A stretch of 35,509 nt of DNA from contig MNXM01000233.1 of the NCBI GenBank assembly GCA_001872605.1, forward strand, positions 1 through 35,509, given 5' to 3'. The notes below the pieces were generated by a model that made no database searches, was not told the origin of the DNA, and saw only the letters and a program-made list of their open reading frames with translations. Position numbers and translations under genes: made by a program. Below, piece by piece: positions 25,432 to 28,853 of the stretch (its first letter is position 1; each line of letters begins with the position of its first letter). This DNA comes from Armatimonadetes bacterium CG2_30_59_28. Lineage in GTDB: Bacteria > Armatimonadota > Abditibacteriia > CG2-30-59-28.

Positions 25432-27387
25432 TCACTTCCGGGAAAGTTCATGCACGGCATCCACCAGTTCCAGCACATGGTCTACTGGTGTGCCTGGCAG
25501 AATCCCGTGTCCGAGATTGAATATGTGTCCGGGCCGCCCTTCTGCTTTTTCAAGGATACTCTTGGCTCTCTTTCGGATCTCACGGGGAGGTGCGAAGAGG
25601 GCGACCGGATCGAGGTTGCCCTGAACCCCCAGGTCGTACCCGAGTTTCTCCCACTCTTGCGCGAGGTCGACGCGCCAATCCAGTCCGATGACATTCCCGC
25701 CTGCTTCCTTCTGCAACGGCAGCAGGGCCGGGTTTCCCGTCCCGAAATGAATGACTGGCGTTGAGTCGTTAATACCCCCGATCAGTGTTCGCATGTGCGG
25801 CAGGACGAACTCCCGATAGTCCTCGGGCGACAGACAGCCGACCCAACTGTCGAAAAGCTGCAAAGCGTCCGCTCCAGCGTCGATCTGTCTGTTGAGATAG
25901 GCCGTCGTGGCAGAAACGAGTCGTTCCATGAGCGCATGCCACGCCCCCGGATCTCGATAGATCAAGCTTTTGGTGTTCTGGTAGTTTCGCGATCCGCCGC
26001 CCTCGACCGCGTAGGAGGCCACCGTGAAGGGCGCTCCGGCAAATCCAATAAGGGCCACTTCGGGCGCGAGCGCCCTACGGGTCATCTGCACTGCATCGTA
26101 CACGAACTGCAGCGACCCGGGATTGAGATCCCGCAGTCGGTCAATTTCGCGGGCGTTCCGCACCGGATTCCCGATGCGCGGCCCCTCTCCCTTGTCGAAG
26201 GAAATGTCGACACCAATGGGCTCCAGAATCAATAGAATATCCGCAAAGATAATAGCCGCATCGACTGCCAGAGTCTCGACGGCCATCAAGGTTACCTCGG
26301 CGGACAGCTCCGGTGTCTTGCACAGCTCCAAAAACGATACCTTTGACCGCAGTTGCCGGTACGCCCGTTGAAACCGGCCCGCCTGTCGCATTAGCCAGAT
26401 GGGTGTGTAGTCGGTCGCTTCGCCGCGGCAAGCCTTAAGAAAAGTGGAACGGCGAGCGTCTGGTGACGGATCACGGATTGGGCGCGACTGGTCACCGGGC
26501 CAGCGCATGTCGACGCGTTGCCAGTGGTTCGTATCTACACCGTTCTCCACAGCCGTGCGCTTTCTGCGGAGCAGGAAAGCAGAGAGCCGCGCCGCGTCCC
26601 CCACGAGGTTTCCCATGCGGGTTGTATCCGGCTCGTGGTCAACGGCAAGTCCACACTCGTGAATGGCATCGGAACAGGCCGGCCCTATGGAAGCGATGAC
26701 GATCCGCCGGAAAGCGTTACGCAATTTTTCCTCGAGTCCCATCTCGTTGGCCACCTGTAGAAGGTTGCGGATCTGTGGGGCGCTGGTGAAAAGGGAAATA
26801 TCAACACGTCCGTTAACGATCTCTTGGATGGCGGTGCGGAGAGGCGTCAGATCGTCCGGCAGCGTCCATCGGTAAGTGGGCACCGGTGTGACGTTTGCGC
26901 CGCGCTGCTGGAGGCTCTTCAGCAGCTCTTTGTTCGGCGCTCCGTATTCCTGGATGGCAATTCTCTTCCCCTCGAGGGATTGCTTGCCATCCATCGCCGT
27001 GAGTAGCGCGCGGGAGGTGTTAGGTTCGCCTGCAACGAGGTGAGGTTCAACTCCCATCTTTCTGAGAGCAGAGGCTGCCTTCGGACCCCGCGCTACAACG
27101 GTGGTCTTGTTAAGAGCCTCGATGAACTGGGCTGCAGGAAGTTGTGTCGCCACTGCGTCCTTCAGGGAGTTCGCCCCCACGCCGGTAAGAAACACGACGA
27201 TGTCGAACTCACCGGTTATGAGTTGCCTGGCAAAGGCAATGGCTTCCCCGGCTTCCGAAAGCGGAGTCTCCGCCATCGAAGGAGCGACGAGAGGAAGACC
27301 TCCGTAGCGCTCGATCAATTTCTCCATCTCATCTGCGCGACGACTCTCGAAAGAGACAACGCGCAGTCCGTCGAAGTTGTTTGTCAT
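25432..27387 (-). CDS. Fused uroporphyrinogen-III synthase / uroporphyrinogen decarboxylase (HemD-HemE)
   Basis: This 651-residue protein joins two consecutive tetrapyrrole enzymes. Residues ~1-275 are a HemD domain (FDIVVFLTGVGANSL, VVARGPKAASALRKMGVEP, DISLFTSAPQIRNLLQVA, IASIGPACSDAI), which closes hydroxymethylbilane to uroporphyrinogen III. A ~35-residue linker follows. Residues ~313-651 are HemE, with WLMRQAGRFQRAYR, catalytic-type Asp383 in FADILLILEPIGVD, GFAGAPFTVASYAVEGG, GLDWRVDL and the histidine of FNLGHGILPGTPVDHV; it decarboxylates to coproporphyrinogen III. ATG at 27387 is chosen because the promoter at 27426-27453 begins transcription downstream of the earlier in-frame start at 27525. 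No other heme gene is in the window. Confidence 0.93.
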   Translation of the reverse strand: MTNNFDGLRVVSFESRRADEMEKLIERYGGLPLVAPSMAETPLSEAGEAIAFARQLITGEFDIVVFLTGVGANSLKDAVATQLPAAQFIEALNKTTVVARGPKAASALRKMGVEPHLVAGEPNTSRALLTAMDGKQSLEGKRIAIQEYGAPNKELLKSLQQRGANVTPVPTYRWTLPDDLTPLRTAIQEIVNGRVDISLFTSAPQIRNLLQVANEMGLEEKLRNAFRRIVIASIGPACSDAIHECGLAVDHEPDTTRMGNLVGDAARLSAFLLRRKRTAVENGVDTNHWQRVDMRWPGDQSRPIRDPSPDARRSTFLKACRGEATDYTPIWLMRQAGRFQRAYRQLRSKVSFLELCKTPELSAEVTLMAVETLAVDAAIIFADILLILEPIGVDISFDKGEGPRIGNPVRNAREIDRLRDLNPGSLQFVYDAVQMTRRALAPEVALIGFAGAPFTVASYAVEGGGSRNYQNTKSLIYRDPGAWHALMERLVSATTAYLNRQIDAGADALQLFDSWVGCLSPEDYREFVLPHMRTLIGGINDSTPVIHFGTGNPALLPLQKEAGGNVIGLDWRVDLAQEWEKLGYDLGVQGNLDPVALFAPPREIRKRAKSILEKAEGRPGHIFNLGHGILPGTPVDHVLELVDAVHELSRK

Positions 27388-27425
27388 ATCAGGTGTGTCT
27401 ACCCGTGGATTCCAGAACGTCTTTG

Positions 27426-27453
27426 AGTATACCAACAATGGCCCGTTCGTCAA
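27426..27453 (-). promoter_or_regulatory. Extended -10 promoter of hemD-hemE
   Basis: On the minus strand TTGACG (27453-27448) is followed by a 16-base spacer ending in TGG and TATACT (27431-27426), giving a TGn extended -10. Transcription should start near 27419, leaving a ~32-base leader to the ATG at 27387. Confidence 0.7.
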
Positions 27454-27597
27454 CTCCCCCAAGGGCGCTGGATGAGAAATGTCCGGGAACCAATTGCACG
27501 GTTTCCTCAGGTTCACGGAAAACATGGAGCCTGTTTAACGAGAGAACGTCAGAGAAGTCACAATCAAGCACAAAGGCTGGGAAAGGAGGATTGGCAG

Positions 27598-28383
27598 ATG
27601 AGATGGTCACAAAGAGCCAGAGCATGGGGGGGCACGGTGGTTGCCGTGTTGGTGTCACTTGCCTGCGGCATCCTGTTTCGTTCCATGCTGCACACTGGCA
27701 GTCCGTCGGTGGTCTTCGCCGACAAGTCCGCGGAGGCGAAGACCGATCCCGTAGAAGTTAAGGCGATGACAGTGGATGGGAAAGAAGTGGGTGTGATCAC
27801 CGTCAACGACAGAGAAGTGCTCCGGCTGACCACCACCCTTGCAGGGCTGAGCCCTCTGGAGCGAGCGAATATCGTGGCCCGCCGGGTCAACACCGCTGTC
27901 GCGGGAGGGATTGCCCCCGCAGACATCCAGGCAAAGCAGATGAATGGGATGTGGTCGGTGACAGCCGCAAACAAGGTTCTGGTCACCGCCGACCCTGAAG
28001 AGGCGCGGCGCGGAGGGACAACGCCGGCGGCCCAGGCGCGGACATGGGCAGACAGCCTGTCGAAGAGCCTTGAGAAACAACACGTCAGCAGCGACCAGGC
28101 GGGGAGCCAACATGCTGCCACCGTTTGGAAGCCGGAGGAGCCGTACGACGACAAATGGGTTCCCATCGTCAGTGCCCTCGAGGGGCTGAAGTTGGGTGTC
28201 GCGCGCGTGAACGGGCCTCGCTCGAAGGTGAAGCTCGTACAGGCGGTGGCCCAGATCGAGACCCACTTCAAAGACTTTGTCGAGATCGACGTCTATCTTC
28301 CCATTTCCACGAACGTGCCGGGCGAGAAACTCGACATAGTGAAAGGCGCAGCGGTTACTGGTCTCGGAGACATTGAGTTGTAA
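27598..28383 (+). CDS. Exported protein with a C-terminal domain shared with the next gene
   Basis: I do not recognise this 261-residue protein as a named family. An N-terminal membrane segment or signal anchor (TVVAVLVSLACGILF) precedes a region (residues ~55-135) with VDGKEVGVITVN and LSPLERANIVARRVNTAV, a pattern reminiscent of periplasmic parts of some mechanosensitive channels. A polar linker follows. Residues ~187-261 (WVPIVSALEG, GVARVNGPRSKVKLVQAVAQ, AAVTGLGDI) align clearly with residues 76-151 of the next protein. ATG at 27598 has AAGGAGG 8 bases upstream. The two genes are 14 bases apart and the next ribosome-binding site overlaps this stop codon, so they are co-expressed. It is probably displayed outside the cytoplasmic membrane. 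Confidence 0.8.
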   Translation: MRWSQRARAWGGTVVAVLVSLACGILFRSMLHTGSPSVVFADKSAEAKTDPVEVKAMTVDGKEVGVITVNDREVLRLTTTLAGLSPLERANIVARRVNTAVAGGIAPADIQAKQMNGMWSVTAANKVLVTADPEEARRGGTTPAAQARTWADSLSKSLEKQHVSSDQAGSQHAATVWKPEEPYDDKWVPIVSALEGLKLGVARVNGPRSKVKLVQAVAQIETHFKDFVEIDVYLPISTNVPGEKLDIVKGAAVTGLGDIEL

Positions 28384-28397
28384 GGAGGCGAAAGACC

Positions 28398-28853
28398 ATG
28401 AAAGTGGTACGTAGGCATCACCAAAGGACCGCCCTGATTTGCATGGCGGCGTTTCTGACGGGCGTTGCCCTTGGTCCGTCGCCCTCGCGAGCGATCGATC
28501 TTGGTGACATCATCAAGGCGGGAGGCATTGGGTTCCTCGTCACCCAGTTTGGACAAGAGATCGATGGATTTGTCAACAAGGTGATGGGCCAGCGCGGGAT
28601 CGAGCGGGAAGGCATGACAAAGGTAGTTCCGGTCGTGCGCGTGGGTAGCGGAACGGCCGTCGGTGCCGTGCAGGTGGTCGGGCCGGAGTCTCAGGTTAAA
28701 CAGGTGCAGGCTGTTGCTGAGTTGGAGCTGAAGATCGGTAACCGCGTGCGAGCTCGGGGACTGATTCCAGTGACCACCAAGAAGGTGGCCACCAGCGCCA
28801 TCAAGGGCGTTGGCGGTGTCGGCGTTTCGGCGAATATCAAGTTCCCGCTGTAG
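28398..28853 (+). CDS. Small exported protein, partner of 27598-28383
   Basis: This 151-residue protein has a signal peptide (TALICMAAFLTGVALG, cleavage near SRA). After it come IDLGDIIKAGGIGFLVTQFG and a helix EIDGFVNKVMG, then a domain (residues 76-151): KVVPVVRVGSGTAVGAVQVV, GPESQVKQVQAVAELELKI, GVGGVGVSANIKF. That domain is homologous to the end of the preceding protein. I have an unverified impression of similar hypothetical proteins in Clostridia. No function can be assigned. A strong AAGGAGG (28382-28388) overlaps the upstream stop and lies 9 bases before the ATG. Confidence 0.8.
   Translation: MKVVRRHHQRTALICMAAFLTGVALGPSPSRAIDLGDIIKAGGIGFLVTQFGQEIDGFVNKVMGQRGIEREGMTKVVPVVRVGSGTAVGAVQVVGPESQVKQVQAVAELELKIGNRVRARGLIPVTTKKVATSAIKGVGGVGVSANIKFPL

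Follow-up and report, generated by a model that had tools for sequence, protein, structure and literature searches.

Diderm Terrabacteria build their outer membranes without BamB-E, LptE and Lpp/Pal, the helper lipoproteins used by Proteobacteria, and how they do so is a question that has been described as fundamental (PMC10665443). In Veillonella parvula, where LptE is reported missing (PMC10665443), the lptD cluster (CP001820.1:780878-784136) carries Vpar_0645 and Vpar_0646 upstream of LptD, and these two proteins were proposed as LptE equivalents (Poppleton 2017, PMC5491611). Both were present in outer-membrane and surface-exposed fractions, and they had no conserved domains or clear homologs (PMC5491611); such proteomic fractions may hold periplasmic contaminants, and Vpar_0645 received the localisation prediction "unclear". 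A text search of the literature returned no paper naming Vpar_0645 or Vpar_0646 other than Poppleton 2017. A second described component of the diderm Terrabacteria envelope is OmpM, which serves as a tether (PMC10628300).

The window considered here is a stretch of 35,509 nucleotides (contig MNXM01000233.1) from the 5.49 Mb draft genome of Armatimonadetes bacterium CG2_30_59_28, phylum Armatimonadota. It contains two neighbouring genes, P1 and P2, whose features all lie on the + strand. P1 (27598..28383) encodes a protein of 261 aa and is preceded by the Shine-Dalgarno sequence AAAGGAGG (27582..27589); the reading frame agrees with orthologs in alignments and has dN far below dS. Its N-terminal hydrophobic segment (residues 1-41; 27598..27720), which ends in VVFA|DK and is modelled by AlphaFold2 (AF2) as a helix at residues 3-31, is a probable signal peptide or signal anchor. 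An alpha/beta N-terminal domain follows (residues 50-167; 27745..28098), matched by our profile A5 and predicted with pLDDT of about 95-98 at residues 51-160. The last part is a P2-type C-terminal domain (residues 182-261; 28141..28380), whose homology to that of P2 is indicated by hhalign, a tree and AF2.

P2 (28398..28853) encodes 151 aa, and its Shine-Dalgarno sequence TAAGGAGG (28381..28388) overlaps the TAA stop of P1; the two proteins are probably co-translated. A probable signal peptide (residues 1-32; 28398..28493) ends in PSRA|ID and includes a predicted helix at residues 6-24. The mature protein would begin with a hydrophobic, Gly-containing helix (residues 35-65; 28500..28592), seen in hydropathy and, at modest confidence, in the AF2 model; G43, V48, I55 and N60 are conserved in this region of the P2 family alignment. 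The C-terminal domain (residues 69-151; 28602..28850), delimited by alignment, AF2 and hhalign, has conserved TKVVP and GVGVSA-type motifs. Against Armatimonadota orthologs, corrected dN for P1 and P2 is 0.21-0.49 and dS is 1.5-2.2, near saturation, indicating purifying selection. Export of both proteins is probable, judging from the N-terminal hydrophobic segments and signal-peptidase-like sites. The initial annotation of this DNA had described two exported proteins with near-perfect ribosome-binding sites, that of the second gene overlapping the stop codon of the first, and its genes are real, with correct boundaries and Shine-Dalgarno sites.

On one side of the pair lies a HemD-HemE fusion gene, on the other a threonine-synthase-like gene. 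The fusion is a single ORF (25432-27525, -) with matches to uroporphyrinogen-III synthase HemD (E=4e-37) and uroporphyrinogen decarboxylase HemE (E=6e-128). A second, stand-alone paralog of P2, 38% identical, is encoded elsewhere in the same genome (contig C289, L187 8348-8821); it begins within the end of an alpha/beta-hydrolase gene, and further upstream, on the same strand, is a gene for an RND-type efflux pump.

Similarity between the C-terminal domains of P1 and P2 was detected at several levels. In blastp, P1 residues 186-239 and P2 residues 75-128 are 39% identical over 54 residues (E=1e-8), and the local alignment score of the two proteins was 96, where the best of 5000 shuffles reached 57. 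Profiles of the two domains were built from 50 (P1) and 40 (P2) sequences from many genomes. Because hhalign matched these profiles over 78 columns with E=1e-32, the similarity is beyond chance and reaches both C-termini. AF2 models (mean pLDDT 86 for P1 and a modest 69 for P2, with its C-terminal domain mostly at 67-89) have the same order of elements in both domains, namely two strands, a short helix and three strands; the P1 strands are at residues 183-192, 199-207, 216-224, 228-237 and 252-258. In a tree of 90 domains, a supported branch (99/96) separates all P1-type from all P2-type sequences, which argues for one old split and not for repeated duplication. Two tandem P2-type stretches were also observed in open frames of about 350-510 aa in several Armatimonadota genera (G075:C89:6043-6819, G082:C57:230585-231385, G027:C379:5509-6285 and G047:C3:167655-168428).

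The shared domain is unnamed in the libraries searched. Pfam and NCBIfam scans with single proteins and alignments, together with PDB sequence searches, gave no significant relative of P1 or P2, and Foldseek against PDB returned nothing at E<=0.001 for either model, that of P2 being of modest confidence. Sub-threshold matches, each confined to one or a few members, were rejected. Of 49 N-terminal domains of the P1 type, five weakly matched COP23 (PF14218; best E=0.0074, significant for no member), and the window protein gave no such match; Spore_YtfJ (PF09579) matched one of 31 P2 proteins (E=0.053, not significant); and DUF1206 and TPP_enzyme_N gave scattered matches. The initial annotation had proposed a common C-terminal domain that it could not name. 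Profile search, alignment and predicted strand order all bear this out, the motifs it picked out are conserved across the family, and the models give the two C-termini the same element order and not the unrelated folds that would have spoken against it.

Profile A3, which defines the Vpar_0645-like family here, matches the V. parvula gene at 780878 with E=1.4e-53. In the V. parvula genome (G350) this P2 relative occupies 780878-781324, and 784136 is the last position of the LptD gene. Since the start of the first and the end of the second coincide exactly with the ends of the published cluster, P2 is a member of the Vpar_0645 family. The LptD_N domain of the V. parvula LptD gene scores just under the Pfam cut-off (20.0 vs 20.4 bits); its V. 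atypica ortholog passes, and the published cluster has the V. parvula gene as LptD. The window P2 and the V. parvula protein both match A3 over their full length, including TKVVP...GAAQV.G...GVGVSA, and they share size, a signal-peptide-like start, the helix and the C-terminal domain. They differ in setting: Vpar_0645 has no P1 and lies beside Vpar_0646 and lptD, whereas the window P2 is paired with P1 between metabolic genes. The domain belongs to a phylum-spanning family with a Veillonella member beside lptD.

The P2 family spans at least three diderm groups: Armatimonadota (87 of 101 genomes), Negativicutes, the class of Veillonella (85 of 121), and Synergistota (69 of 121). When about 85,000 species genomes were scanned with a pattern, 217 places matched, and among the best 80 of these, all informatively named records were Armatimonadota (including WS1, Zipacnadia and Hebobacteria MAGs), Negativicutes, Synergistota or unresolved Bacillota MAGs. 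The closest P2 relative in a named genome within those 80 is in Armatimonadetes bacterium NC_groundwater_1070 (L038). The outer-membrane assembly protein Omp85 was found in 98 of 101 Armatimonadota genomes and LptD_N-type domains in 75 of 101, in both cases including the genome of the window. When 150 Bacillota genomes were sampled, P2 occurred in six, all among the 37 with Omp85, and in none of the 113 that lack it (hypergeometric test ignoring relatedness: 1.6e-4, and 6.6e-4 once the seed genome is removed). We considered P2 as a marker of every outer-membrane genome and rejected this, as 31 of the 37 Omp85-bearing Bacillota do not have it. Because it is absent from these, from 36 of 121 Negativicutes and from 52 of 121 Synergistota, P2 is not a universal outer-membrane part; and since many Omp85-bearing genomes do without it, it is not essential for having an outer membrane.

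The N-terminal domain of P1 is found in 92 of 101 Armatimonadota genomes, where it is common in exported proteins. Outside this phylum, its profile matched in only 13 of 121 Synergistota genomes, mostly weakly and partially. The genome of the window encodes an exported 615-aa protein that bears this domain (E=1.6e-11) and has no Pfam match; its gene starts 11 bases after the stop of lpxD. The order in that outer-membrane gene cluster, which is on contig C228 of this genome (L211 311-13031), is tamB, a sigma factor, bamA, skp(ompH), an unknown gene (391 aa), lpxD and the 615-aa protein. Nine other genomes likewise encode a protein with the P1 N-terminal domain at a distance of 3-5 kb from Omp85. 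In some P1 relatives the N-terminal domain is tandemly duplicated (L010 299-1471, L039 1463-2701 and L040 1207-2403).

P2 adjoins P1 in 28 of the 30 strongest P1 matches, so the tight coupling of the two genes that the initial annotation inferred from one locus extends across genomes. Gene order inside the pair varies between genomes, and Negativicutes, Synergistota and many Armatimonadota have a P2 but no P1. We did not find a conserved wider operon around P1-P2, the commonest neighbour cluster being present at 6 of 32 pair loci.

Neighbours of P2 in the other phyla point to lipopolysaccharide transport. In Veillonella (including V. atypica), Negativicoccus and Allisonella, P2 is followed by an exported "VYG"-repeat protein of the Vpar_0646 type and then by an LptD-type protein. 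In Negativicutes, a Vpar_0646-like gene is present at 18 of 30 P2 loci. In Synergistota it adjoins P2 at 30 of 30 loci, an LptC relative lies within 1.5 kb at 19 of 30, and the gene order is (Vpar_0646-like)-P2-LptC-LptD; in Thermovirga, P2 adjoins lptC (Pfam 1.3e-6), followed by an LptD-like gene. Vpar_0646-like proteins from Negativicutes and Synergistota match each other (e.g., 3e-29 and 6e-29). These proteins form a family of their own that is unnamed and exported and carries repeated VYG-type motifs, with no Pfam match (L210 1922-3046 in V. parvula; L095 2938-3975).

We favor the reading that P2 belongs to an unnamed family of periplasm-side, outer-membrane-associated accessory factors that help to build or maintain the outer membrane, and that P1 is an Armatimonadota paralog that is probably made together with P2 and would form a complex with it. 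We put this at roughly 55%. It is supported by the finding that the same domain makes up a Veillonella protein detected in the outer membrane and encoded beside lptD, which makes the P1-P2 pair probably part of outer-membrane building or maintenance in a diderm branch that has received little study. Also in its favor are the lpt-type neighbours of P2 in Synergistota and Negativicutes, the SLH-porin relatives beside P2 where P1 is lacking, the confinement of P2 to Omp85-bearing genomes in the Bacillota sample, the P1 N-terminal domain in the protein encoded after lpxD, the conserved pairing of P1 with P2, and the supported branch that divides the two domain types. By analogy with the published proteomics of Vpar_0645, the window P1 and P2 are themselves probably located at the outer membrane. 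Counting against an outer-membrane role, no outer-membrane gene adjoins the pair in the window, P2 is missing from many Omp85-bearing genomes and is not consistently close to lpt genes, the Vpar_0645 fractions may be contaminated, and the searches gave no sequence or structure relative whose function is known. The initial annotation had suggested a secreted, two-component envelope complex. An envelope role has good support in the comparative evidence and, for the P2 family, in the Vpar_0645 proteomics, and "secreted" is better replaced by "probably outer-membrane-associated".

A narrower proposal would have P2 replace LptE, or a different Lpt accessory, functionally at the LptD translocon in diderm Terrabacteria, with P1 modulating P2 in Armatimonadota. 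The gene orders in Negativicutes and Synergistota described above, the reported lack of LptE in V. parvula (PMC10665443) and the earlier suggestion that Vpar_0645 and Vpar_0646 are its equivalents (PMC5491611) speak for it. A functional analogy with LptE is possible: P2 is small, is probably associated with the outer membrane and, in some members of its family, shares a locus with LptD. However, P2 and LptE have no sequence or fold match (Pfam, NCBIfam, PDB, Foldseek), and P2 has no canonical conserved lipobox: its signal region ends in a PSRA|ID site, and the cysteines of the hydrophobic stretch are not conserved. The link to lptD is also inconstant. The P2 genes of Armatimonadota and of many Negativicutes lie away from lptD (P2 does not adjoin lptD in Megasphaera, Acidaminococcus or Pectinatus), and many outer-membrane-bearing genomes lack P2 altogether. 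Because Vpar_0646 is reported to be conserved with lptD in all Negativicutes, the Vpar_0646-like family may be a better LptE candidate than P2. On balance, we regard this narrower proposal as unlikely.

The neighbours of P2 in Armatimonadota suggest a different partner. Relatives of SLH-domain porins lie beside P2 at 12 of 21 distinct Armatimonadota or unlabelled P2-only loci, where query genes had SLH domains by Pfam and neighbours were scored as relatives of those genes. One MAG labelled Chthonomonas calidirosea has its P2 next to an SLH porin gene (L106). P2 and P1 might then partner SLH-type porins (OmpM-like tethers) or assist in their assembly, and act in attaching the outer membrane to the cell wall. 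Neither protein has an SLH match, and their connection to OmpM and other SLH porins is confined to being neighbours of such genes in other genomes. In the flanks examined, SLH-porin neighbours are absent from P2 loci in Negativicutes and Synergistota and from P1-P2 pairs, and we consider this role for the pair quite improbable. Least probable of all is that P1 and P2 make up a secreted or periplasmic module with no part in outer-membrane biogenesis (e.g., in stress or metabolite binding) and that their neighbourhoods are incidental, as the metabolic neighbours in the window and the unconserved surroundings of the pair would allow. This is hard to reconcile with the links to lpt genes in two phyla and to SLH porins in a third, with the outer-membrane proteomics, and with the restriction of P2 to Omp85-bearing genomes in the Bacillota sample.

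Under the favored reading of P2 as an outer-membrane accessory factor with P1 as its paralog, P2 most likely acts with the lipopolysaccharide translocon or with neighbouring SLH-type porins, and the pair would have a role in lipopolysaccharide or porin handling. The hydrophobic Gly-containing helix of P2 would hold the protein at the outer membrane, leaving the beta domain of P2 to contact a partner. Gene neighbours suggest that this partner would be the LptD/LptC system in Negativicutes and Synergistota, and SLH porins or P1 in Armatimonadota. P1 would have arisen by an ancient single duplication of the P2-type C-terminal domain, which was joined to an N-terminal domain of other Armatimonadota envelope proteins. 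We propose that the homologous beta domains of P1 and P2, which are natural candidates for pairing, hold the two proteins together in one complex at the outer membrane; in the periplasm this would link P2 with the N-terminal domain of P1. A broader scenario is more tentative, and we hold it to be rather doubtful. It would place an ancestral P2 family in the lipopolysaccharide-transport or outer-membrane machinery of diderm Terrabacteria, partly replacing the missing LptE, with Armatimonadota evolving a two-protein complex by duplicating the beta domain and joining it to the domain of the lpxD-linked protein.

Outer-membrane accessory factors are, as a general kind of protein, already known, but this family, with its two-protein form, had not been described as a unit before. 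An orphan outer-membrane protein of V. parvula is now tied to a family across three phyla, with its domain and its lpt linkage defined, and Armatimonadota supply a two-protein version of this Vpar_0645-like family. V. parvula is genetically tractable, and the role of the family is therefore directly testable.
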